The notes under the pieces were generated by a model. It saw only the letters and a list, made by a program, of their open reading frames with translations, was not told where the DNA came from and made no database searches. From a virus, in the IMG/VR virus record IMGVR_UViG_3300011994_000001, positions 1 to 53,011 of that record: a stretch of DNA of 53,011 bases, one strand, 5' to 3'. This document shows positions 12,864-43,009 of this stretch, piece after piece. The position numbers and the translations under genes were made by a program. Every line of letters starts with the position of its first letter. The stretch's first letter is position 1.

Positions 12864-12912
12864 CCTAAAAAAACTTTCACTTTTTCCATATTCCTAAAAA
12901 CTTTCACTTTTT
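12864..12912. repeat. Direct repeats upstream of the first early promoter
   Basis: CCTAAAAAAACTTTCACTTTTT (12864-12885) is repeated in near-identical, two-base-shorter form at 12893-12912. A partial third copy (TACTTTCACC) overlaps the start at 12857. The position 65-120 bp upstream of the 12978 promoter fits operator sites for a regulator, perhaps the adjacent helix-turn-helix protein. Confidence 0.55.
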
Positions 12913-21018: not shown

Positions 21019-21528
21019 ATGTTAATATGCGCGAGGGCTTATACAGGTAAACAGCAAAGGAGTATGATACAGCCAAAGATATTTTGTAACCTATCTGGGT
21101 GCTACTGCCAGTATACCGAATGGTCAAGAGGTACCTACGACCAAGCTGAATCTTGTATAGAGTGCCCGAGATACCTTGGTGAGGAAGAGCTTGATTATGC
21201 TGATGTAGCGTTACAGAAAAAGTGCAGACTTATTATGGAGGACGCAACAAGTTTAGTAGCCTCCCTTAACAGTAATCCTACGCCAAAGATAAAGCGACCA
21301 AGCTTTAACTCAGTTATCCAAGGAAACGCCGATAACTTGAGTGCGCTCACCGGAGAGCTTATGGCGTCAAAGTCTAAACAGCGGAAAGAAGAACACACAA
21401 AGGAGAAACTTAATGTGCAAGAGTTGAGGGAAGTACAAGATGCGGAGTTGTGCAAAGGAGAGTCAAGAAACTTCTACCCAACAAGGACTACCGCCAAAAG
21501 TCGTTACGCAGAGGGCGAGTATTCATGA
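21019..21528 (+). CDS. Hypothetical protein with N-terminal Cys cluster
   Basis: A 169-residue protein. ATG 21019 has GAGGAGGG nine bases upstream. Residues 20-50 contain CNLSGCYCQYTEW and CIECPRYLGEEEL, likely a zinc site. The remainder is charged and probably helical. The gene ends at the TGA of an ATGA overlap with the amino-acid:DNA transferase-like gene, so they are translationally coupled and may work together. Function unknown. Confidence 0.55.
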   Translation: MLICARAYTGKQQRSMIQPKIFCNLSGCYCQYTEWSRGTYDQAESCIECPRYLGEEELDYADVALQKKCRLIMEDATSLVASLNSNPTPKIKRPSFNSVIQGNADNLSALTGELMASKSKQRKEEHTKEKLNVQELREVQDAELCKGESRNFYPTRTTAKSRYAEGEYS

Positions 21529-22517
21529 AGAATAGACCTGCGGATGTTCCTTATTGCGGGGTAAGAGAGGATAAGATCAAGAACGCAAAGCCCGTATTGA
21601 ACGAGACCAACTTCAAGTACTTGTTCGATTTCATAACGCGTAGGTATCGTATCCATAAAAAGAAAGACGTCAAGAAGTTACCCGCTCCGTGGACGAAAGA
21701 CCCGATACTGCGAGACTACAAGTTCACGAATGTTCGGAGAGAACACGACAGAGAATCTTTATGGCTTATCAAGAACATAGCCGAAAATGACTATCTTAGC
21801 TACGAAGACAAGCTGATGAATATTATCCTCTTTAGGATGTTTAACAAGTCGGACACCTCCTCAATAATCGGTCTGATACAATTCTCTACGTTTGATATTA
21901 TCAAGAAGAGTATCGAGGACAGGTTGAGACGGAAAGCGGAGAATACGCCTGACTATATATTCTTTACCAACGCCTTTCTTACCTGCGGTCTCAAAGTAGC
22001 TCTTGGGAATAACCCCGAAACTACTGACGAGTTTATGCCTATGAGGGTTATCAAGTTTATCGAGGTCTTGTACAAGGACGGTATCGTGGATAAGATCAAG
22101 AAAGCTAAAGATCAAAAAGCGGTCTTTGAGGTAGTCAAGAGCTACAAGGGGTTAGGAGAGTTTCTGAGCTATCAAATATTTGTAGATTTCACTTATATCC
22201 ACGACTTCCCATTCTCAGAGAATGAGTTTACAATATCGGGTCCAGGATGTATACGAGGGCTAGACAACGTCTTTGACGATAGGGACGGGATGACTCACGA
22301 CGAATGTTTATTCTGGTTACGGGATAACTTACACATGGAGTTCTTCGATAGAGGTTACAAATATGACCCTATCAAGCTATATAGCGACCTGCCGATGAGC
22401 GACAGGAGAACAAACGTAATGTCCTTGGAGAACATTCACTGTGAGTTGAGTAAGTATATCCGAGCGAGGAACGGCACGGGCGGTCCAAGAAACCGCTATA
22501 AACCGAGAGGATTATAA
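21525..22517 (+). CDS. DNA base hypermodification protein (amino-acid:DNA transferase-like, HMUDK_hel type)
   Basis: A 330-residue protein; ATG 21525 with GAGGGCGAG upstream. The signature near residues 54-80 (PAPWTKDPILRDYKFTNV, then RREHDRESLWL) is that of the helical domain of 5-hydroxymethyl-dU hypermodification proteins (Pfam HMUDK_hel, related to the alpha-glutamyl/putrescinyl-thymine pyrophosphorylases). The helical stretch YKGLGEFLSYQIFVDFTY and the FTISGPGCIRGLD site near residue 260 also fit this DNA-glycosylase-like fold. Family members act on DNA after replication and replace the pyrophosphate on hydroxymethyl-uracil with an amino acid or amine. Together with the proteins at 30517 and 33037 it points to base hypermodification. 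Confidence 0.7.
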   Translation: MKNRPADVPYCGVREDKIKNAKPVLNETNFKYLFDFITRRYRIHKKKDVKKLPAPWTKDPILRDYKFTNVRREHDRESLWLIKNIAENDYLSYEDKLMNIILFRMFNKSDTSSIIGLIQFSTFDIIKKSIEDRLRRKAENTPDYIFFTNAFLTCGLKVALGNNPETTDEFMPMRVIKFIEVLYKDGIVDKIKKAKDQKAVFEVVKSYKGLGEFLSYQIFVDFTYIHDFPFSENEFTISGPGCIRGLDNVFDDRDGMTHDECLFWLRDNLHMEFFDRGYKYDPIKLYSDLPMSDRRTNVMSLENIHCELSKYIRARNGTGGPRNRYKPRGL

Positions 22518-22645: not shown

Positions 22646-23119
22646 ATGAAAAGGGCAAAGTCTGCTATAAGTTACCTGCGTTTGGCTAGTTTCTATGCTA
22701 AAGAGAACTCAGGATGTTTAAAAGTTAAGGTAGGAGCGGTTATTGTAAAGAACGGTAAAGTTGTTGGTCTTGGAGCTAATCAAGCTGATCTAAACTTATG
22801 TTTGAGCGATAGAGGTTGCTTGCGTATAGAGAAGTATGGCGAGTCTTCCAAAGATCACCGACTTCCTGCCGATTGCAGGGCTGTACACTCCGAGGTCGAT
22901 GCTATCAGCTCTAGCCCCGTAGACCTAGAGGGAGCGACGATATATGTGACAAGATACCCCTGCGAATCTTGCGCCCGAGCTATTATATCTGCGGGTATAT
23001 CCAGAGTAGTCTACGGAAGGGAACAAAGTATAACGCCATATACGGACAGACTATTCGACTTCAACAATATTGAGGTATCTCACATAAGGGAGTACGCTGA
23101 AGAAGATGTTGTTGTATGA
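22646..23119 (+). CDS. dCMP deaminase
   Basis: A 157-residue cytidine/deoxycytidylate deaminase. Zinc ligands and general acid are present: His81 and Glu83 in VHSEVDAI, Cys106 and Cys109 in PCESCA. The N-terminal KVKVGAVIVKNGKVVG is the usual substrate strand. The enzyme converts dCMP to dUMP and so feeds the thymidylate-synthase-family enzyme at 34305. A clear GAGGAGG lies before the ATG. It is tightly followed by a small Cys protein and MazG, a nucleotide-pool cluster. Confidence 0.88.
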   Translation: MKRAKSAISYLRLASFYAKENSGCLKVKVGAVIVKNGKVVGLGANQADLNLCLSDRGCLRIEKYGESSKDHRLPADCRAVHSEVDAISSSPVDLEGATIYVTRYPCESCARAIISAGISRVVYGREQSITPYTDRLFDFNNIEVSHIREYAEEDVVV

Positions 23120-23334
23120 AGGGCGGGAGGCATATGGGGCTAAACTCTGACGAGAAAATATGTAAGGTATGTGGCAAAATGTTTATCTTATTTGACGTTG
23201 CTAATTACGCTTACAAGATAGCGAGGATAAACGGAGCTCACGATTGGTACTGCGGGTATAGCCACTTTAGAATCGGTCAAAAAGAGCATGAGGCTAGAAT
23301 CAAGAAAAGCAGAGAGAGGAAGAGCAGAGTATGA
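23116..23334 (+). CDS. Small zinc-finger-like protein
   Basis: A 72-residue protein overlapping the deaminase stop (ATGA). It has KICKVCGKMFIL and DWYCGYSHFRIG (two Cys pairs, zinc ribbon-like), then a basic tail (KEHEARIKKSRERKSRV). Probably binds nucleic acid; function unknown. Confidence 0.6.
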   Translation: MKGGRHMGLNSDEKICKVCGKMFILFDVANYAYKIARINGAHDWYCGYSHFRIGQKEHEARIKKSRERKSRV

Positions 23335-29380: not shown

Positions 29381-29396
29381 TCAAGGACTACTTGGG

Positions 29397-29422
29397 GGAG
29401 CGGTGACGCTCCTCTATTTTTA
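29397..29422 (+). terminator. Intrinsic terminator after the recombination operon
   Basis: GGAGCG-GTGA-CGCTCC hairpin followed by TCTATTTTTA. Confidence 0.8.
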
Positions 29423-29503: not shown

Positions 29504-30505
29504 ATGTTAAATGTTAGATCCATCGAACACGGCAGAGGTACTATCCAGGGTATAAAATTTCTGATTGAGGGCAAGGATACGTTGGTAATTACCAGTCAAT
29601 CCGCTTGGTCATCGCTTAGAAAACTGTTGGCTTTTGGACCCGTAAATGTATTTTCAGCTACCTCTGTATCTCAGAAGAGTTTGGACGAGTTACTCGCTAT
29701 GTCTAAGAGGTTCAAGACCATTATCGGTATCGGGGGAGGTATGGTAATTGACTCAGCTAAGTACGTTGCTTGGATTACTGGAGCTAGACTTGTTCTTGTT
29801 CCTACTGTGTTATCAACTAACGCGTTTGCTACGGAAGCAATAGGCGTTCGTACCGAGGAAGGCAAAGTAGTGTATGTAGGTAACTCTCGTGCTGATAAGC
29901 TTATTGTAGACTTCGATCTGTTGAGAATGTCTCCCCCAGCGTTAAACTACTCAGGTACAGTAGACGTACTATCTTGCCATACAGCTACCCGAGATTGGGA
30001 GATAGCGGTTGAAGACGGAGTACTGAGTCACCCCTTAGACCTTCAGGCAGGTCGCAAAGCCCGCCAATTAGTGAACCGTATAGATAACTACTCTGAAGAC
30101 ATTAGAGAGCTTACGGACATCGGTTTGAAGGTCTTATTAGACTGCTTGCTAGATACCGCTGAGATATGTCAACCGCTAGGACACTACCGAGCGGAGGAAG
30201 GATCAGAACACTTCTTATTTTACGCTATCGAGAAGATACTCAAAAGACCGTTTATCCACGGTCAGATAGTAGGCCTGGGAATACAGATTATGAGTAGTCT
30301 ACAGGTAAACAGTACCAACGATATATCCTGTGTTATGAAGGATATCGGTCTTAATATAACCCCTAAGTCAATGGGTATTACCAAGGACGTTCTTAGACAA
30401 GCTTTGGTTGATCTTAGGACGTATCCTCAACCCTGGCATACGATTATTGATAGGGGTATATCAGATAGTTTTATCGAGCAAACGTTGTATTATTTGGAAT
30501 TCTAG
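29504..30505 (+). CDS. Metal-dependent dehydroquinate synthase / glycerol-1-phosphate dehydrogenase-like enzyme
   Basis: A 333-residue protein (ATG 29504; the upstream frame is the AGGAGG site itself). It has the fold signature of the DHQ synthase / iron-alcohol dehydrogenase superfamily: nucleotide-binding GIGGGMVIDSAKYVA near 73-87, LVLVPTVLSTNAFATEA, and metal ligands Asp154 (GTVDVLS), His236 (GSEHFLFYAIE) and His252 (FIHGQIVGLG). All ligands are present, so it should be active, using NAD and a polyol phosphate, keto-acid or alcohol. It opens the modification operon, 11 bases before the amino-acid:DNA transferase, so a role in preparing or altering the base substituent is likely. Its substrate cannot be read from sequence. 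Confidence 0.75.
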   Translation: MLNVRSIEHGRGTIQGIKFLIEGKDTLVITSQSAWSSLRKLLAFGPVNVFSATSVSQKSLDELLAMSKRFKTIIGIGGGMVIDSAKYVAWITGARLVLVPTVLSTNAFATEAIGVRTEEGKVVYVGNSRADKLIVDFDLLRMSPPALNYSGTVDVLSCHTATRDWEIAVEDGVLSHPLDLQAGRKARQLVNRIDNYSEDIRELTDIGLKVLLDCLLDTAEICQPLGHYRAEEGSEHFLFYAIEKILKRPFIHGQIVGLGIQIMSSLQVNSTNDISCVMKDIGLNITPKSMGITKDVLRQALVDLRTYPQPWHTIIDRGISDSFIEQTLYYLEF

Positions 30506-30516
30506 GAGGTTGTGTT

Positions 30517-31470
30517 ATGGATCTGTATAATATACACGGGGATACGGGCGGGGATTGGAGAATGAACAAGTTCAAAGAGTATTGCGACGGAGATATTGAC
30601 GACACGCTTGCTCCTATGAACTGGTTACTCAAAAAGGCGGGGGCTAATCGAGGAGATAGAATATGGGCGTCATTTCTCTATTCTACCTGCTATTGCCTAG
30701 GAACAACGATGTTTATGTATAACGAGTTATTCTATGGTACGCTGACACCCAGGAAATTAGACGAATTCTGGGAGGACTACAAAAAAGATCTGGTATTCCA
30801 AACAGACCGTAAGTACGCGAAGAATCTAAACTGGTTTGTGCCTATGGTAGTTCAGTTTATGGCTAAGACCAAGAGAGACCCAGAAAAGTACTTCAGACCG
30901 CTTCTAACAGGTACGCCCGAGGAAGTATACCGTAAGATGTACAAAGAGGTTTCAGGATGGAAGTTCTTTGGACGATTCTCCACGATACTATTCCTCAAGA
31001 CCCTCATATCTATTCTCCCTATCGAAATGGACTTTGATACAGAGTACGATTGGGCTAATGGAGAAACCACTACCGCGGGGGCTCTTATCTTACACTACCG
31101 CGACGAAGAAGCCAAACAGTTTCTCCTAGATCATAAGATCACGCCTGACATGAAGAAGTATTTTGACGAGTTACTGGAAGAGTGTAAAGGCAAGATAGCG
31201 GGTAATATGCTCCATACCTCATCCGCTTTTTGTAGTCACTTTAAATTATACAAAGAGCAAAGGTACCTTGGATATTACGTTGATCGAGGTCAACACGAAC
31301 TTAGAACTCTACAAAAGAACCTACCTCAAGCTCACGAGCTGTGGGACCGAATATGGATAGCCCGAAGAAGGACTATTGATTGGAAGTATCTTGGGGAGAT
31401 CAACGGTTGGGCTGGTACAAGACCTGAGAAGTGTCATGACTTTATGAAAACTGGAAGGATGTATGAATAA
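30517..31470 (+). CDS. Amino-acid:DNA transferase-like protein (thymine pyrophosphorylase clade 2 type)
   Basis: A 317-residue protein. RGDRIWASFLYSTCYCLGTT near 45-64, VFQTDRKYAKNLNWFV and GWKFFGRFSTILFLKTL near 145-165 recall the amino-acid:DNA transferase (alpha-glutamyl/putrescinyl thymine pyrophosphorylase clade 2) family of hypermodifying phages. These proteins swap the pyrophosphate of pyrophosphorylated hydroxymethyl-uracil in DNA for an amino acid. The basic RRRTIDWKY end fits DNA binding. Stop and next ATG overlap (TAATG). It is the second such protein in the genome. I rely on remembered family patterns, not an alignment. Confidence 0.65.
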   Translation: MDLYNIHGDTGGDWRMNKFKEYCDGDIDDTLAPMNWLLKKAGANRGDRIWASFLYSTCYCLGTTMFMYNELFYGTLTPRKLDEFWEDYKKDLVFQTDRKYAKNLNWFVPMVVQFMAKTKRDPEKYFRPLLTGTPEEVYRKMYKEVSGWKFFGRFSTILFLKTLISILPIEMDFDTEYDWANGETTTAGALILHYRDEEAKQFLLDHKITPDMKKYFDELLEECKGKIAGNMLHTSSAFCSHFKLYKEQRYLGYYVDRGQHELRTLQKNLPQAHELWDRIWIARRRTIDWKYLGEINGWAGTRPEKCHDFMKTGRMYE

Positions 31471-31643
31471 TGACAGACGCTATAAAAGATACCAAAATTA
31501 ATCTTTGTTCTACTTGCGCGTTTGAGATTCCTTCTTGCGAAGCTAGTCCTGAAGATATTGAGTTCGGCGACGGTCTGAGTAATGATAATGTAATACTTTG
31601 TAAGCATTATGAGCTGGAAGAAGGAATTGTTTATGAGCAATAA
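31470..31643 (+). CDS. Small Cys-containing protein in the modification operon
   Basis: A 57-residue protein (MTDAIKDTKINLCSTCAFEI). Cys pairs CSTC, then SC and CKHY are compatible with one metal site, as in other small proteins here that contain the 'CSTCAFEIPSCEA' pattern. Start overlaps the previous stop; its end overlaps the start of the glycosyltransferase. Function unknown. Confidence 0.6.
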   Translation: MTDAIKDTKINLCSTCAFEIPSCEASPEDIEFGDGLSNDNVILCKHYELEEGIVYEQ

Positions 31644-32601
31644 TGAATGGCAAGAAGGCAAGCCTTATCGAACTGAGAAAATTAGCAGAAAGGTAGCGGG
31701 ACGAAAGCTTGAGATTCCAATTTGTATCCCGTCCTACGGTAGACCCGACTCAGCTATGTTCAAGATTTTAGAGAAAGAACCCGATCTGCCTATGGTTTTC
31801 TTTATCCGAGAGGAGCAGAAAGAGCTGTATGCAGGATTGAAGGGCAAAGCCCGTATAGTTACTCTAAAGAACGTGGATAACATAGGACAGACCCGAGCTA
31901 AGATTGTAAAGTGGGCTCATAAGCAGGGTTACGAGAATATATTTATGTTTGACGATAAAGTAACCGCTGTAAATGCCCTCGCTCCTAGACTTAGCAGGAA
32001 CGATAATTGGTCGATGAGCAAGTTTACTACGACGATGTATCAAGCTCTTCAAGTTTGGGAATACCTTATCAGAAAGTACAAACCCTGCATGTCAGGAGGT
32101 CTCCACAAAGGATTCAGTTTCTCCCCAGGTAACATCAACGCTGAGCCTGAGATAGCCCCGGGTATATGGTGCGCTATACAACTTAACGTCGATATGTTGT
32201 CTGAGAATGATATTAACTACCGAGACAGTAATATATACGGTCACGAGGATAACATAATGGAGATAGAGGTTATGCAGAAGCGTCTAAAGCATATTTGCTT
32301 CAAGGATATCGAGTTTGATAACATACCTTCCTCCGACAAGTATACGGGCGGGATTCAGGATACGTGCCCCGAGAGCGAGACTAGACTGGAACGGGTAAGT
32401 AGACTATCTGATCTTGTAGAGAAGTTCGTAGGCAAGGGTCACCCTGGAATAATATTTTATACTTGGAAAGACGGAGCGAGATATGTGCGCATGAATTGGA
32501 AATACTGGAGAAAGCATTACTCCGAAGAACCTAAATTGACTAAGAAACAAATCGATCGTTTTAACGTATTGAAATTGTCGGAGGTATCCAAGGATGAGTA
32601 G
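31633..32601 (+). CDS. TET-associated-type glycosyltransferase (GT-A fold)
   Basis: A 322-residue protein; ATG 31633 chosen for the AAGGA nine bases upstream. It has a GT-A N-terminus (IPICIPSYGRPDSAMF), the LKNVDNIGQTRAKIVKWA helix with its conserved Asn-Ile-Gly-Gln-x-Arg, and the metal-binding MFDDKV near residue 107. The acceptor part carries NIYGHEDNIMEIEVM. This layout matches the TET/JBP-associated glycosyltransferase family, which attaches sugars to hydroxymethyl bases in DNA. No TET enzyme is present, so the target is likely the base made by the 34305 enzyme or a further modified form. It lies in one operon with transferase and HAD genes. Confidence 0.65.
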   Translation: MSNNEWQEGKPYRTEKISRKVAGRKLEIPICIPSYGRPDSAMFKILEKEPDLPMVFFIREEQKELYAGLKGKARIVTLKNVDNIGQTRAKIVKWAHKQGYENIFMFDDKVTAVNALAPRLSRNDNWSMSKFTTTMYQALQVWEYLIRKYKPCMSGGLHKGFSFSPGNINAEPEIAPGIWCAIQLNVDMLSENDINYRDSNIYGHEDNIMEIEVMQKRLKHICFKDIEFDNIPSSDKYTGGIQDTCPESETRLERVSRLSDLVEKFVGKGHPGIIFYTWKDGARYVRMNWKYWRKHYSEEPKLTKKQIDRFNVLKLSEVSKDE

Positions 32602-32992
32602 AATATTGGATCAAGCAGAGTACGATTCTCTCCCTAAAATTGCGGCGGTAGACTTCGATGGAACCCTGGCTATTGTAAAAAACTATCGAGGAACTGGCGT
32701 TGCTAATCGCCTAGTAATGGATAGGGTCAAGAGACTGCAGAAAGAGGGCTGGAAGCTTATCCTATGGACCTGTAGAGACGATGAGAACGAGGACATGGAG
32801 TTGACGTCTGCGGTACTATTCTGTGCAAAACACGGGCTATTCTTCGATGCGGTCAACGAGAATATCAAGGAAGTTCAAGACCTTATGGAAGGAGATACGC
32901 GAAAGATATATGCTAACGTGTACATTGACGATAAGTCAATAGTAGACTGGGATAAAATATTACCTTTACTTTTAGAGGAAAGAGTAGTATAA
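32594..32992 (+). CDS. HAD-family phosphatase, copy 1
   Basis: A 132-residue HAD hydrolase with motif I at residues 20-24 (DFDGT), WKLILWTCRD (motif II with Thr) and VYIDDKSI (motif IV Asp pair). There is no cap domain. A closely similar domain ends the protein at 35364-36011 (WKVILWTCRD, FDAVNENIKEV in both). It likely removes phosphate from a nucleotide or sugar-phosphate in the modification pathway. The start overlaps the glycosyltransferase by eight bases. Its 3' end contains the promoter of the kinase operon. Confidence 0.75.
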   Translation: MSRILDQAEYDSLPKIAAVDFDGTLAIVKNYRGTGVANRLVMDRVKRLQKEGWKLILWTCRDDENEDMELTSAVLFCAKHGLFFDAVNENIKEVQDLMEGDTRKIYANVYIDDKSIVDWDKILPLLLEERVV

Positions 32993-32993
32993 T
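32965..32993 (+). promoter_or_regulatory. Early promoter 7 (TTTACT-17-TATAAT), inside the HAD gene
   Basis: TTTACT is at 32965-32970 and TATAAT at 32988-32993, spacer 17 bp, overlapping the last codons of the HAD gene. It drives the long kinase-to-helicase operon 33037-38786. Confidence 0.8.
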
Positions 32994-33036
32994 TGAGTTG
33001 TTGAGGGAATAGAATATAGGTTAGAGAGGAGCGAAC

Positions 33037-33654
33037 ATGAAACTACTTGTAAATATACGCGGGACAAACGGAGCGGGAAAATCCACGATACCTATGGCTA
33101 TGCTAGACGATCCAAAGATGCACGTTGTAGGATGCGGGTACAAGGCTGAGAAGCCCTGTGCCCCGTGGCTAACTGTATTTCCTACCTACGGATGGGTTGC
33201 CTTGGGTACGTACCGAGCTAAGACGGGCGGGATGGATACTATGTCGACCAACGCTGATATAGCCTTTGCTCTAGCTACCGCTTGGGATAGATACCCAGAG
33301 AGAGATATACTAATGGAGGGTATCATAGCCTCAACGATTAAGTCCACTTATGCCGAGCTTTTTGGTAATTACCAGTCTATGGTAGACGCGGAGGAAGTTA
33401 CCCCGAGGAAGATCGTAATTATGTCGTTTGTACCGCCCTTGGAGGTATGCCTATCCCGAGTTCAGGAGCGTAACGGGGGAAAACCTGTTAAAGAGGACGC
33501 AATAGCTGGTAAGTGGAGAACGGTAGACCGAAACGTGCAGTACTTCAAAGATATGGGATTTACATCCTTGCGGATAGATAACTCCAATATCAAGAAGGAA
33601 AGTATGTTCAAGAACTTCTTGCGAACTTGTGATAAGTACCGAGAGGAGGACTAG
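33037..33654 (+). CDS. P-loop kinase, 5-hydroxymethyl-pyrimidine DNA kinase-like
   Basis: A 205-residue protein opening with NIRGTNGAGKSTI, residues 6-18 (Walker A GTNGAGKST), the start typical of 5-hydroxymethyl-dU DNA kinases of hypermodifying phages. These enzymes phosphorylate the hydroxymethyl group in DNA before the amino-acid:DNA transferase acts. Other features are DILMEGIIAST (Walker B region) and IVIMSFVPPLEVCLSRVQER. A nucleotide-monophosphate kinase would be the alternative. GAGAGGAG lies before the ATG. Confidence 0.65.
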   Translation: MKLLVNIRGTNGAGKSTIPMAMLDDPKMHVVGCGYKAEKPCAPWLTVFPTYGWVALGTYRAKTGGMDTMSTNADIAFALATAWDRYPERDILMEGIIASTIKSTYAELFGNYQSMVDAEEVTPRKIVIMSFVPPLEVCLSRVQERNGGKPVKEDAIAGKWRTVDRNVQYFKDMGFTSLRIDNSNIKKESMFKNFLRTCDKYREED

Positions 33655-33656
33655 AC

Positions 33657-33758
33657 TTGAGAGTTTGTTCTAACTGTACGCGCTCTTGGTATTGCGAATA
33701 TGCTACTAACCAGATAATATGCTTTAAATACGAGTCAACTCGTAAGTACCGTGTGTAA
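33657..33758 (+). CDS. Small Cys-rich protein (TTG start)
   Basis: A 33-residue protein with a perfect AGGAGG nine bases before TTG 33657. It has CSNCTRSWYCEY and ICFKYE, four Cys, likely a zinc knuckle. Function unknown. Confidence 0.5.
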   Translation: MRVCSNCTRSWYCEYATNQIICFKYESTRKYRV

Positions 33759-33957
33759 GCACGAATGGTCCTCTCTTGGAGGTAACCGACCTAAACGCTG
33801 TATACTCTGCGGAGAGTACGAGCAGAAGCCTAAAAACAACTTCCATATAGGTAATAAGAGGAGGAGAGTAATACATGATAGCCTACCAAGAAACTCCCGA
33901 GCAACAGACGCGAGTAGAAGCCCAAGCACTAGAGGAGCTAGCTCTTACCATGATTAG
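33751..33957 (+). CDS. Small zinc-finger-like protein (tentative)
   Basis: A 68-residue frame starting at GTG 33751, within the end of the previous gene and overlapping the next gene by 80 bases. The first 30 residues (CKHEWSSLGGNRPKRCILCG) are a typical short zinc motif; the rest runs through the next gene's ribosome site and start and may be non-native. Translation would depend on coupling. Confidence 0.4.
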   Translation: MCKHEWSSLGGNRPKRCILCGEYEQKPKNNFHIGNKRRRVIHDSLPRNSRATDASRSPSTRGASSYHD

Positions 33958-34282
33958 TCAATTTGAAAAGAAGAATGTTGCGTACGGCAACGCTTTTGGT
34001 AATCAGTTTCAGAAGTACGGTCCCATAGCAGGTCTTCAAAGGCTAGCTGATAAGTTCTCCCGTATTGAAGCTCTTATGCTAGGAGCTCAGAACGGAGTTC
34101 CAGATGAGAGCTTGGAGGATACGCTAATGGATAGTGCTTGCTACGCTCTTATGGTTATCTACGAGCTACGGAGAAAGAAGAAGCTTGAGGAAGAAGATTC
34201 CTTTGTTCCAAACCGCGCTAAACAACCTCCCAAGCCCGCTAAACAACCTTGGGTGGAGAGAATGGAAAACGGCGAACTGTAG
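33875..34282 (+). CDS. DUF1599 / nucleotide-modification-associated domain 1 protein
   Basis: A 135-residue protein. KNVAYGNAFGNQFQKYGPIAGL, then LADKFSRIEALML and DESLEDTLMDSACYALMVIYEL, is the all-alpha DUF1599 pattern (named nucleotide modification associated domain 1). It is often next to phage thymidylate-synthase-type genes, as here (23 bases to the next start). Its role in pool control or modification is not known. AGAGGAGGAG precedes the ATG. Confidence 0.7.
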   Translation: MIAYQETPEQQTRVEAQALEELALTMISQFEKKNVAYGNAFGNQFQKYGPIAGLQRLADKFSRIEALMLGAQNGVPDESLEDTLMDSACYALMVIYELRRKKKLEEEDSFVPNRAKQPPKPAKQPWVERMENGEL

Positions 34283-34304
34283 AAGATAAGAGGAGGGAAT
34301 AAAC

Positions 34305-35009
34305 ATGGGGTATTTAATTGCTAATAACGCTACTCAAGCTTGGGAAAGTTTGTATTATCAACTAAAAAATCAAGCTAGAAACGGGTTTTTACAACCGTCC
34401 CGAGCGGGAAATGTAGTAGGAGAAATCATAAACGCTGTAACAGTAATCAAGAACCCTCGCCAGGGTATCGTAGAATCCAAGATAAGAAATATGTCTATAA
34501 AATACGCTCTTGGAGAGTTACTTTGGTATATGTCGGGCAGTAACCGCTTGAGCGATATCTCTCCTTACTCTAAAGCTTGGGAAGGTCTATCAGACGATGG
34601 GGAGACGGTAAACTCAGCGTATGGGTACAGAATAGGTTCTATGTTTGGATTTGATCAGTACTCCTACGTGAGAGATATGCTACACAGAGACCCTTTATCG
34701 CGTCAGGCTATTATCCATATTAAAGACCCTAGTGAGAAGATAACTAAAGACACTCCTTGTACCCTGTCACTCCAATACCTCTTGCGGGACGGAAAACTGC
34801 ACGCTACCACGGTAATGCGATCAAACGATATTTGGCTTGGGTTCCCTTATGACGTATTCGCTTTTACCTCTCTACAGGTGATGATGGCTATGGAGCTAGG
34901 GGTAGACGTGGGAGAGTATACCCATATAGCTGGATCGCTACACTTGTACGAACGAGATTTGAAAGGGGCTGTAAACGTTGGAACTACACAAGATAGCGAT
35001 AAAAGTTGA
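34305..35009 (+). CDS. Thymidylate-synthase-family pyrimidine hydroxymethylase
   Basis: A 234-residue ThyA-family protein: catalytic Cys152 (TPCTLSLQY), phosphate site (SRQAIIHI), MRSNDIWLGFPYDVFAFT and HIAGSLHLYERDL. The position equivalent to the dUMP-reading Asn177 of E. coli ThyA is Asp183, the change seen in T4 dCMP hydroxymethylase and related enzymes. It ends about 25 residues early and lacks the usual ThyA C-terminal tail that closes over folate. This points to a hydroxymethylase, giving 5-hydroxymethyl-dCMP or -dUMP, the first step of hypermodification. The ATG has AGAGGAGGG upstream. Confidence 0.75.
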   Translation: MGYLIANNATQAWESLYYQLKNQARNGFLQPSRAGNVVGEIINAVTVIKNPRQGIVESKIRNMSIKYALGELLWYMSGSNRLSDISPYSKAWEGLSDDGETVNSAYGYRIGSMFGFDQYSYVRDMLHRDPLSRQAIIHIKDPSEKITKDTPCTLSLQYLLRDGKLHATTVMRSNDIWLGFPYDVFAFTSLQVMMAMELGVDVGEYTHIAGSLHLYERDLKGAVNVGTTQDSDKS

Positions 35010-35313
35010 AGGCAGAAAAGGAGATAAGAACTGGGTTCACTTCTGCTATATCCCGCCCGAGCTAAAGGACGAGTTTGACTCCAAAGTTGAGGCGGACCCT
35101 AGATGGGTTATTAAATGGGCAAACGAGGATTTTGGTATGGGCATAGGCGAAGTTATGACCGAGATAGAACTGGATCAACTCCGAGAGCTTATCAAGGAAC
35201 GGTATCAACGATTGTACCCTGATCTTTATATCGAAAGTCAGACCGATAATCAAGGTTGGGTACGAGTTTGGATGATATCTAATATGAGGAGCGAGATCGC
35301 CAAGCGCGGTTAA
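34978..35313 (+). CDS. Hypothetical protein overlapping the hydroxymethylase gene
   Basis: A 111-residue protein starting at TTG 34978 with AAAGGGG ten bases upstream, overlapping the previous gene by 32 bases. It is charged and rich in aromatic residues (YIPPELKDEFDSKVEADPRW, LYIESQTDNQGWVRVWMI). No family recognised. Coupled translation suggests joint function with the hydroxymethylase. Confidence 0.6.
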   Translation: MELHKIAIKVEGRKGDKNWVHFCYIPPELKDEFDSKVEADPRWVIKWANEDFGMGIGEVMTEIELDQLRELIKERYQRLYPDLYIESQTDNQGWVRVWMISNMRSEIAKRG

Positions 35314-35363: not shown

Positions 35364-36011
35364 ATGACATGCGGTAATACTATTGATTGTAGAGACTGTG
35401 AGGATAGATATAAATGCGGGCCAGCTGTGGGTATGATAGGAGATTACACAACTAAAGAGTATGAAAAAATGAAAGCCCGTAAATCGTCTGTTAGTACTGA
35501 TATCGATTATTCAAGACGCTGCGGAGAGTTTGGACATTCTGATGCTATGAATAGGGCTAGTTGCGTATCTTGCAGTATGCACGCGATAGAGTTGTACAAA
35601 GCTTGCTTAAATAAAAAACACGCTGGGGTTACCCCGAAAACGTACAAAGATAAACCCAAAGTTGAGAAACAACATATGGATAAGCTACCAAGTATATTAG
35701 CGGTAGACTTCGATGGAACTCTCGTTCACGATGACTATCCCTTGATTGGTAAGGCTAGAACGGAGGTATTTGACCTTGTAAGAACGTATATCCACAGAGG
35801 TTGGAAAGTTATCTTATGGACTTGTAGGGATCACGAATGGTTAGCTAGTGCCGTTGACTATTGTAGGAACCAGGGTCTAGAGTTTGACGCTGTTAACGAG
35901 AATATCAAAGAGGTCAAGGAAATGTTCGACAACGATACCCGTAAGGTGTTTGCTAATATTTATATTGACGATAAATTTTTGTTTGTAGAAGGTGTTAATA
36001 ATGCCTCTTGA
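35364..36011 (+). CDS. Cys-rich N-terminal domain fused to HAD phosphatase, copy 2
   Basis: A 215-residue protein. Residues 1-75 hold about eight Cys in pairs (CRDCEDRYKC, CGEFGH, CVSC), likely a zinc domain. Residues 108-210 are a HAD hydrolase with DFDGT at 115-119, WKVILWTCRD and IYIDDKF. The HAD part is a paralogue of 32594-32992, with FDAVNENIKEV identical in both. The zinc domain probably recruits it to DNA or a partner. Good AGAGGAGG before the ATG. Confidence 0.72.
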   Translation: MTCGNTIDCRDCEDRYKCGPAVGMIGDYTTKEYEKMKARKSSVSTDIDYSRRCGEFGHSDAMNRASCVSCSMHAIELYKACLNKKHAGVTPKTYKDKPKVEKQHMDKLPSILAVDFDGTLVHDDYPLIGKARTEVFDLVRTYIHRGWKVILWTCRDHEWLASAVDYCRNQGLEFDAVNENIKEVKEMFDNDTRKVFANIYIDDKFLFVEGVNNAS

Positions 36012-41041: not shown

Positions 41042-41851
41042 ATGAAGTACTCAACGATCCAGACAAAAGACGGATGGAACGCTAAGATTCAGGAATTTGA
41101 TTCGATAGGGGATTTAAGAGGTCATATGGCTTCGATGCCTGAGAAGAGTACGCTCTGGATAAACGTATCCAAGGAGAGTCTAGTCAAAGGGTCAAGTTGG
41201 GCGGGTACTTACGATTATGAAGAAGCTGATTACCTCCTAACTCACGGATGGCAGGAAAAAGCAGAAAAGCTAGCCAAGAAGCTGCCGATCAAAGTAGTAT
41301 CCAGCGAAGTACGGAAAACAACCCCGAGCTACGGAATGGTAGGACACCAAGCTTCTGTACCCCGATATATAATGGGAGTACCTCAGAATATGATTAATAG
41401 CAAGCCCGTAACGGTACAGCAGAAGATAATCACGATAAACAAAAGTATCAGCGTCAACTGTAGAGTAACCGCAGAACAAATAGAGGAGGAAGGTATCAAG
41501 GCTCTTCAAATAATACAAGCTCTTGAGGGCAAAGGGTATCGAGTCAAGTTGAATATATTCTGGTTATCTCTTGTTACTAACGAAATGGCGATATGCAAAG
41601 TATGTATCAAAAAGCCCGAGGAGAGGTTGAGCCTTATCAAGGTAGCTTTCCCGATAGCTCACCCATCGATGTTACGAAGGATTATGCTTAACTGGATGGA
41701 GCGATTCGAGGAATTGACAGATAGGAGCTTCACCTATGGATACGGCAGAGCGAACGGGACCCAATACTCAAGCCTACTCAAGAAAGGAGAATACCTGCTA
41801 CCAGAGTTTATACCGAACGTTGACGAGTTCGTAAAAAAGATGGGGCTGTAA
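41042..41851 (+). CDS. DUF7192-like phage protein
   Basis: A 269-residue protein. The N-terminal region (DLRGHMASMPEKS, AGTYDYEEADYLLTHGWQEKAE) matches a domain of unknown function found in large phages, often beside a MoxR-type ATPase as here (41969). The middle PRYIMGVPQNMINSKPVT and C-terminal MLRRIMLNWMERFEELTDR also fit. Probably a substrate or target of the ATPase. Monocistronic, with own promoter and leader. Confidence 0.6.
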   Translation: MKYSTIQTKDGWNAKIQEFDSIGDLRGHMASMPEKSTLWINVSKESLVKGSSWAGTYDYEEADYLLTHGWQEKAEKLAKKLPIKVVSSEVRKTTPSYGMVGHQASVPRYIMGVPQNMINSKPVTVQQKIITINKSISVNCRVTAEQIEEEGIKALQIIQALEGKGYRVKLNIFWLSLVTNEMAICKVCIKKPEERLSLIKVAFPIAHPSMLRRIMLNWMERFEELTDRSFTYGYGRANGTQYSSLLKKGEYLLPEFIPNVDEFVKKMGL

Positions 41852-41858
41852 GCCCCTT
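41842..41858 (+). terminator. Hairpin overlapping the stop codon
   Basis: GGGGCT-GTA-AGCCCC followed by TTCCG; weak as a terminator. Confidence 0.45.
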
Positions 41859-41900
41859 CCGCGCTCCTGAAAATAATTTTAAATTCTTTTGTAAAAACGC

Positions 41901-41929
41901 TTTACTTCTTGAAGTAAAAGTAGTATGAT
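41901..41929 (+). promoter_or_regulatory. Early promoter 11 (TTTACT-17-TATGAT)
   Basis: TTTACT is at 41901-41906 and TATGAT at 41924-41929, spacer 17 bp. Confidence 0.85.
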
Positions 41930-41968
41930 AAGAATGTAGAGAGATTACAAAGAAAGAAGGAACGCGGA

Positions 41969-43009
41969 ATGAAACCTGTATACTTAACTCCTGAACTAGC
42001 TAAAGAGATTGGGGTCCAAAAGATCACGAGAGTTGAAACTAAGTATCTGGAGATAACAGTCGGAGGTAAACCAGTAATCAGAACTCTCTCCCTTAACAAG
42101 GATGGATCGGGATACTTTAACTTTAACAAAGTCGGATACTTGATCGAGAATTGCCTGAGAGTTGTTCCTGAGTTAGAAGGTAAGACCGTAACAAAAACGG
42201 TAGAAATAGCCCCTAGAATCAAGGAAGTGGATTTCTCCCCCGTTGTACCCGAGGTAGATAAAACTAAACACGCGAAACACGAGAAAATTAAAATCTGCGT
42301 TAAAAACGATATTCCTGTATACTTAGTAGGCGAAGCAGGAACTGGTAAGAACTATACCCTGGAGCTTATCGCTAAAGAGCTGGACCTAGACTTCTACTTC
42401 ACTAATAGCGTCCAACAAGAGTATAAGATCACTGGATTTATCGACGCTGGCGGTAAGTACCACGAAACTGAATTCTACAAAGCTTTTACGAAGGGCGGAC
42501 TTTTCTTCCTTGACGAGATTGACGCTAGTATCCCCGAGGTTCTGGTTCTACTAAATGCGGCAATAGCTAATCGCTACTTTGAATTTCCTACTGGTAAAGT
42601 AAACGCTCACCCAGACTTCCGAGTAGTATCCGCTGGTAATACCTCAGGGTCAGGATCAAACGAGCTATACACGGGAAGACTGGTATTGGATTCCGCTACC
42701 CTGGACCGTTTCGTAATTATCGACTTTGATTACGATAAGAACGTGGAACTGCACTTAGCAAAAGGAGATACTCACCTGGTAAACTTCGTGAGATCGCTCC
42801 GAGAGTTCTCAAAGAAATCTGGAATCAGAGCTACCTTCTCTTACCGCTGTATAATGACCGTAGTCAAGCTAGAAAGAGCGGGAATGGACCTCAAGAGTAT
42901 ACTGGAGATTGCGGTAGTCAAGGGAATGGATCAAGATACGATTAGCACTCTCAAAGTAGTTGACGCTGGAAAATATTTCTTCGCTTTAAAAGAGCTTCAA
43001 GTTGCTTAG
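41969..43009 (+). CDS. MoxR-type AAA+ ATPase
   Basis: A 346-residue protein with a 100-residue phage-specific N-terminus and an AAA+ core: Walker A near 120 (LVGEAGTGKNYTL, Asn in place of the usual Ser/Thr), Walker B near 177 (GGLFFLDEID), sensor DFRVVSAGNTSG and Arg-finger region LDSATLDRF. MoxR-type ATPases act as chaperones or remodel complexes, often with the DUF7192-type partner at 41042. The replacement of Thr by Asn in the P-loop is worth noting. Confidence 0.78.
   Translation: MKPVYLTPELAKEIGVQKITRVETKYLEITVGGKPVIRTLSLNKDGSGYFNFNKVGYLIENCLRVVPELEGKTVTKTVEIAPRIKEVDFSPVVPEVDKTKHAKHEKIKICVKNDIPVYLVGEAGTGKNYTLELIAKELDLDFYFTNSVQQEYKITGFIDAGGKYHETEFYKAFTKGGLFFLDEIDASIPEVLVLLNAAIANRYFEFPTGKVNAHPDFRVVSAGNTSGSGSNELYTGRLVLDSATLDRFVIIDFDYDKNVELHLAKGDTHLVNFVRSLREFSKKSGIRATFSYRCIMTVVKLERAGMDLKSILEIAVVKGMDQDTISTLKVVDAGKYFFALKELQVA

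Follow-up and report, generated by a model that had tools for sequence, protein, structure and literature searches.

A phage gene block that probably directs cytosine hypermodification with kinase and transferase families known from thymidine

We analyzed a block of predicted DNA-modification genes in an uncultivated virus, IMG/VR record IMGVR_UViG_3300011994_000001; the window is the whole record, 53,011 bases long. The block probably constitutes a cytosine-hypermodification module that uses the kinase/transferase chemistry known from thymidine. This reading draws on the gene set, its recurrence in related viruses, cytosine-type residues in the hydroxymethylase, and altered sites in a dehydrogenase and a glycosyltransferase. 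The window carries genes of a tailed phage (terminase, portal, capsid, tape measure, M23 peptidase, and amidase), and no DNA-level relative of the window was found among named phages.

Results

The record encodes a single ThyA-family protein, a predicted pyrimidine hydroxymethylase (34305..35009, +; PF00303, 2.2e-27), and no ThyX was found in the window. The best PDB matches of the protein were CMP hydroxymethylases (1.1e-31). In the alignment, Asp183 occupies the position of E. coli Asn177, and Thr153 (position 147) immediately follows the catalytic Cys152. This Asp/Thr pair is that of the T4 dCMP hydroxymethylase (gp42). Asp149 is equivalent to T4 Asp145, where both thymidylate synthases compared have Leu, and the Ser and Arg typical of deoxyribose-substrate enzymes are found together with the equivalent of T4 Ser94. 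The gp42 features are thus all present (C152, D183 for Asp179, D149 for Asp145, and T153), with the reservation that loop lengths differ and T4 D179 aligns one column off the window Asp. Only 1 of 54 conserved columns deviates.

At the position that is Asn177 in thymidylate synthase and dUMP hydroxymethylase, the T4 enzyme and the CMP hydroxymethylase MilA have Asp (PMC5175136; PMC6400193). In the MetaGPA metagenome association, positions 177 and 147 gave the best separation between phage contigs with modified cytosine and those without (PMC8670742). Asn177, the mark of the dUMP-type hydroxymethylase of the thymidine pathway, is missing from the window protein. The phages of the 5-hydroxymethyluracil (hmU) type that we compared (M6-like LKO4, ViI-like GG32, Ab19, Vibrio K395, LysYB1, and LuckyBarnes) have Asn at both positions, and no hydroxymethylase across all fetched loci mixed the two patterns. 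Because both published specificity positions are of the cytosine type, we favor cytosine over thymidine as the base, and 5-hydroxymethylcytosine (5hmC) is likely what the window virus makes. The profile matches agree with the original prediction that hydroxymethylase, kinase, and transferase form a hypermodification module together with unusual tailoring enzymes, but the thymidine-type pathway that this prediction took as its model does not fit the hydroxymethylase.

The strongest rival as to the base is that hmU is produced despite these residues. As in M6 and ViI, the hydroxymethylase would make hydroxymethyl-dUMP, or hydroxymethyl-dCMP would be deaminated by a dCMP/cytidine-deaminase-like protein of the window (22646..23119, +; PF00383, 1.7e-17; PF14437, 6.3e-18), and the downstream kinase and transferase would act on hmU. 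Both of these families are familiar from hmU phages, the nearest groups in a kinase tree include hmU-type phages, and the deaminase-like gene is at hand. However, dCMP deaminases also occur in phages with hydroxymethylcytosine, such as T4, and both specificity positions are of the cytosine type in the window and in all its relatives, against Asn/Asn in hmU-type phages. We therefore consider hmU production quite unlikely, and the deaminase-like protein may instead serve nucleotide supply.

The remaining core enzymes are well preserved. The kinase (33037..33654, +) matches the HMUDK family of P-loop 5-hydroxymethyl-pyrimidine DNA kinases (PF18748, 9.6e-24), and none of its 22 conserved columns deviates. 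The putative amino-acid:DNA transferase (ADDT; 30517..31470, +) scores above the cut-off of its family (PF18724, 8.1e-8; phrog_3271, 1.3e-17), with 1 of 16 conserved columns deviating. A protein at 21525..22517 (+), originally called a second transferase, proved to belong not to the ADDT family but to HMUDK_hel, the helical partner family of the kinase (PF18723, 5e-68; phrog_2396, 1.4e-84). Its frame is open from a GTG at 21450, with an ATG at 21525, and the protein is ∼40% identical to Ackermannviridae proteins. The window thus holds the kinase, the helical partner, and the ADDT of the thymidine pathway of M6 and ViI; the role of the kinase is drawn from thymidine phages (PMC6449724). We considered the split kinase as an oddity and dropped it, as M6-like phages, PaMx11-like phages, and LysYB1 likewise encode the P-loop and helical parts in two genes. 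Of 38 related virus records, 9 have an HMUDK_hel match above the cut-off. In four contigs (L047, L048, L009, and L012), glycosyltransferases go with HMUDK_hel or an Asp-type hydroxymethylase without a P-loop kinase, and the helical protein may therefore be a base-recognition part shared with other enzymes.

The other genes of the original prediction were a dehydrogenase-like gene, a TET-associated-type glycosyltransferase (TAGT), a HAD phosphatase, and a DUF1599 gene. All eight are intact plus-strand open reading frames (ORFs) at the coordinates first given, apart from an earlier start for the TAGT frame (31609 rather than 31633), and most match profiles far above chance. The DUF1599 protein (nucleotide-modification-associated domain 1; 33875..34282, +) matches phrog_1485 at 1.1e-22 and PF07659 at only 0.002. 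Four further genes were not in the original prediction: the deaminase-like protein, a second HAD at 35364, the protein at 34978, and a MazG-like protein at 23331, whose likeness was judged by eye only and which gave no match in a Pfam search. The 34978 protein (34978..35313, +; 111 residues) is a conserved small protein of the module, with same-slot relatives in 28 of 44 contigs with an Asp-type hydroxymethylase; in most Asp-type relatives such a protein lies between hydroxymethylase and HAD. Its predicted model is confident (predicted local distance difference test, pLDDT, 93), and a fold search against the PDB returned no significant match.

We wondered how far the block recurs in other viruses. 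Single-protein scans of viral collections gave no matches; scans with alignments were required, and with these we recovered 43 relatives of ThyA and 80 of the kinase, followed by 50 of ADDT. The close relatives have a common gene order: polymerase, nuclease, AAA protein, DUF669 protein, hairpin, ADDT, kinase, an optional TAGT, a DUF1599 or nucleotide-kinase-like gene, the Asp-type hydroxymethylase, the 34978 protein, HAD, and a large ORF in the slot of the window's SNF2-type helicase. Among 44 distinct Asp/Thr contigs (window excluded), 22 carry the kinase, 19 the kinase and the ADDT, and nine a TAGT, but as the contigs are interrelated and were partly chosen by their ThyA, these numbers do not represent independent events. 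Pfam models run on 15 records, the window included, found the kinase in 11 and the ADDT in nine; each record has one ThyA and no ThyX. In the kinase tree, the main Asp-linked group, to which the window belongs, lies near the LysYB1-type hmU kinases. The Asp/Asn label switches about four to five times along this tree, and some branches are long. ADDT and kinase are naturally fused into a single continuous ORF in L023:492-2015 and L073:3095-4699; Pfam confirmed the kinase half. A distant 106-kb contig (L113:8315-12897) groups ADDT, kinase, a C5-cytosine methylase, and an Asp-type hydroxymethylase (ThyA at 12866); the methylase is possibly a second cytosine route.

Asp-type hydroxymethylases without a kinase adjoin glycosyltransferases, of family PF13524 in L038 and of the TAGT type in L047 and L048, which fits an enzyme that makes 5hmC. 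A search for the Tet/JBP dioxygenase (PF12851) found none in the window and was positive in 8 of 11 other records that have an ADDT and showed no ThyA. Virus fragments L242-L277 (for example L251 and L252) carry an ADDT and a weak kinase without ThyA, mostly with a Tet/JBP dioxygenase. Since uracil-type hydroxymethylases, cytosine-type hydroxymethylases, and Tet/JBP all co-occur with it, the ADDT-kinase pair is seen with three hydroxymethyl sources, of which the window has only the cytosine-type hydroxymethylase.

The core of kinase, ADDT, and hydroxymethylase is thus conserved by sequence, whereas the two finishing enzymes, TAGT and dehydrogenase, deviate. The TAGT-type protein (31609..32601, +) has a predicted GT-A fold, with the DxD motif changed to DDK. 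By sequence it falls slightly below the PF20691 cut-off (25.7 versus 27.5 bits; E 1.3e-5; phrog_842, 1e-9). A fold search with its predicted model gave a TAGT-domain protein as best BFVD match (E 1.8e-23), and the modeled fold also resembles the phage beta-glucosyl-HMC-alpha-glucosyltransferase. Five of its 14 conserved columns differ. The sugar half of the original proposal of a sugar or polyol side chain is thus possible, supported by the modeled fold though the DxD is altered. The neighboring HAD phosphatase (32594..32992, +) is BT0820-like (NF046079, 1.5e-22; PDB 2obb, 2e-12), as is the second (35364..36011, +; NF046079, 9.5e-27), which has an N-terminal cysteine-rich extension.

The TAGT might not act on the same side chain as the ADDT. 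5hmC could receive two parallel decorations, direct glycosylation by the TAGT at some residues and kinase plus ADDT at others. A TAGT does accompany an Asp-type hydroxymethylase without a kinase in L047 and L048, and many relatives have ADDT and kinase without a TAGT; however, several relatives have the TAGT in a single operon next to ADDT and kinase. This arrangement is compatible with a cytosine module as far as the base is concerned, and we hold it to be a real possibility, if not the favored one.

The dehydrogenase (29504..30505, +) belongs to the superfamily of glycerol-1-phosphate (G1P) dehydrogenase (G1PDH) but appears remodeled at its substrate site. It matches NCBIfam NF002022 with an E value of 3.5e-32, yet its score is far below the equivalog cut-off. 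The metal ligands D159, H241, and H257 and the nucleotide loop GGG (G82-G84) are retained. In contrast, 21 of 51 conserved G1PDH columns are changed, including the substrate loops, against at most seven in any of 81 cellular relatives. Columns invariant in all 81 are among those altered (K85, D111, G112, S115, P235, S237, and H245). The best-scoring cellular proteins, from Clostridia and archaea alike, are 28–32% identical to it in a non-exhaustive sample drawn with two short motifs. Because the changes include the substrate loops, the enzyme probably does not make G1P: the superfamily originally assigned to it stands, its G1PDH substrate residues do not, and with invariant residues lost it does not imply a polyol or G1P.

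We rejected the G1PDH-type gene as a recurring part of the module: it is absent from the 38 related virus records and gave no match in the viral scans. No modification genes lie beside the cellular homologues, except for two P-loop kinase scores that are very weak (E ∼5e-4). A tblastn search returned two matches labeled as phage, MT835727 and MT837087. The first (L002), labeled "Bacteriophage sp.", resembles a bacterial chromosome, with ABC transporters and prephenate dehydratase-like and pullulanase-like proteins.

Upstream of the dehydrogenase lies a G+C-rich, terminator-like hairpin with a T-run (29393..29416, +). Similar G+C-rich hairpins lie directly 5′ of the ADDT in several relatives; in the window, the dehydrogenase stands between hairpin and ADDT. 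This place, its absence from relatives, and its changed residues suggest that the dehydrogenase joined the operon at its head, with a changed substrate pocket. It and the glycosyltransferase might also lie outside the pathway or be inactive, as recent cargo and a decaying enzyme, leaving a plain amino-acid-type cytosine modification. That no relative has the dehydrogenase and that both proteins lack conserved residues would agree with this. On the contrary, both frames are intact, and the dehydrogenase has a ribosome-binding site, its metal ligands, and an exact place between hairpin and ADDT, so we think loss of function or of connection unlikely.

Elsewhere in the window, a polysaccharide deacetylase domain protein (PF01522; 7294-8511, −) lies among head and packaging genes. 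At 41042-43009, a DUF7192 protein adjoins a MoxR/CbbQ-like AAA ATPase, a pair in which a chaperone or VWA-type partner is often present.

Discussion

We infer every reaction, the order of the steps, and the final structure of the following pathway. The hydroxymethylase would make 5-hydroxymethyl-dCMP, to be built into phage DNA as 5hmC. The kinase, probably with its helical partner, would phosphorylate or pyrophosphorylate the 5-hydroxymethyl group in DNA, and the ADDT would then swap this leaving group for a nucleophile such as an amino acid. For pyrophosphate formation and transfer, this scheme follows the thymidine pathway. Variable tailoring enzymes (the GT-A glycosyltransferase, both HADs, and the dehydrogenase) would complete the side chain, and the modified phage DNA would be shielded from restriction. 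We tentatively propose, at rather less than even confidence, that the virus represents a phage class with a cytosine analogue of thymidine hypermodification, in which the dehydrogenase and the DxD-less glycosyltransferase act on the appended amino-acid-type group to give an undescribed nucleoside.

Besides the relatedness of the contigs, several points weigh against a cytosine module of this kind. To our knowledge, HMUDK and ADDT have been characterized on hmU only. The TAGT reads D115-D116-K117, with Lys in place of the second Asp of the DxD that 10 of 10 relatives keep; some GT-A enzymes, however, are metal-free and use basic residues. Asp177 also occurs in one thymidylate-synthase-like phage protein, that of VR26, but there the other positions hold Leu and His, as in thymidylate synthase. 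Finally, the record is possibly incomplete. The VR26 protein (L013, KP007362 144745-145605) is the only ThyA of its phage and is annotated as thymidylate synthase; a dCMP methylase and a tolerant thymidylate synthase are both possible identities.

The thymidine hypermodification system of phages M6, ViI, SP10, and phiW-14, reportedly described by Lee et al. in 2018 and 2022, shares the HMUDK kinase, helical partner, and ADDT families and a ThyA-family hydroxymethylase. It differs in the Asn/Asn, dUMP-type hydroxymethylase, as opposed to Asp/Thr in the window. In place of a radical SAM or pyridoxal phosphate tailoring gene, of which none was recognized in the window block, we find a glycosyltransferase, HADs, and a dehydrogenase. 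T4, with its glucosylated 5hmC, has a cytosine-type hydroxymethylase and a similar glycosyltransferase fold but is not known to have a DNA kinase/ADDT pair. Lysinibacillus phage LysYB1 (L001) clusters ADDT, kinase, helical partner, HAD, DUF1599, and hydroxymethylase, and its ADDT is the closest to that of the window among named phages (28%). Its hydroxymethylase, however, is of the Asn/Asn uracil type, its ADDT sits at the N terminus of a 640-residue protein, and no TAGT or dehydrogenase was found there.

Elaborated cytosines are known from phages with 5-carbamoyloxymethylcytosine, which also have the Asp177 marker (PMC8670742), and with carboxymethylcytosine (PMC12783734). These depend on carbamoyltransferase or amide-ligase chemistry, and the texts searched do not describe a kinase/ADDT pair (PMC8670742; PMC12783734). 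The dihydroxypentyl-uracil of Bacillus phage SP-15, with sugar and phosphate, is a precedent for a polyol and a sugar on a phage-DNA pyrimidine, but the base is uracil, the gene set is another, and no G1PDH-like gene is listed (PMC5977210). Our literature search, to which key thymidine-pathway papers were out of reach, found no report of ADDT/kinase with a dCMP-type hydroxymethylase, nor of a hydroxymethylcytosine DNA kinase. Kinase/ADDT modules, hydroxymethylcytosine, and TAGT enzymes are each known; the nucleoside that they yield here is possibly new.

Taken together, these results suggest, if the cytosine reading is true, that kinase and transferase chemistry known to us only from thymidine works on cytosine too. 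One tool kit would then serve three sources of hydroxymethyl bases: uracil-type hydroxymethylases, cytosine-type hydroxymethylases, and Tet/JBP dioxygenases. Two hydroxymethylase residues would predict base specificity. The block would also supply candidate enzymes for attaching groups to 5hmC in DNA, of use in 5hmC labeling, and would give insight into how phages escape restriction.

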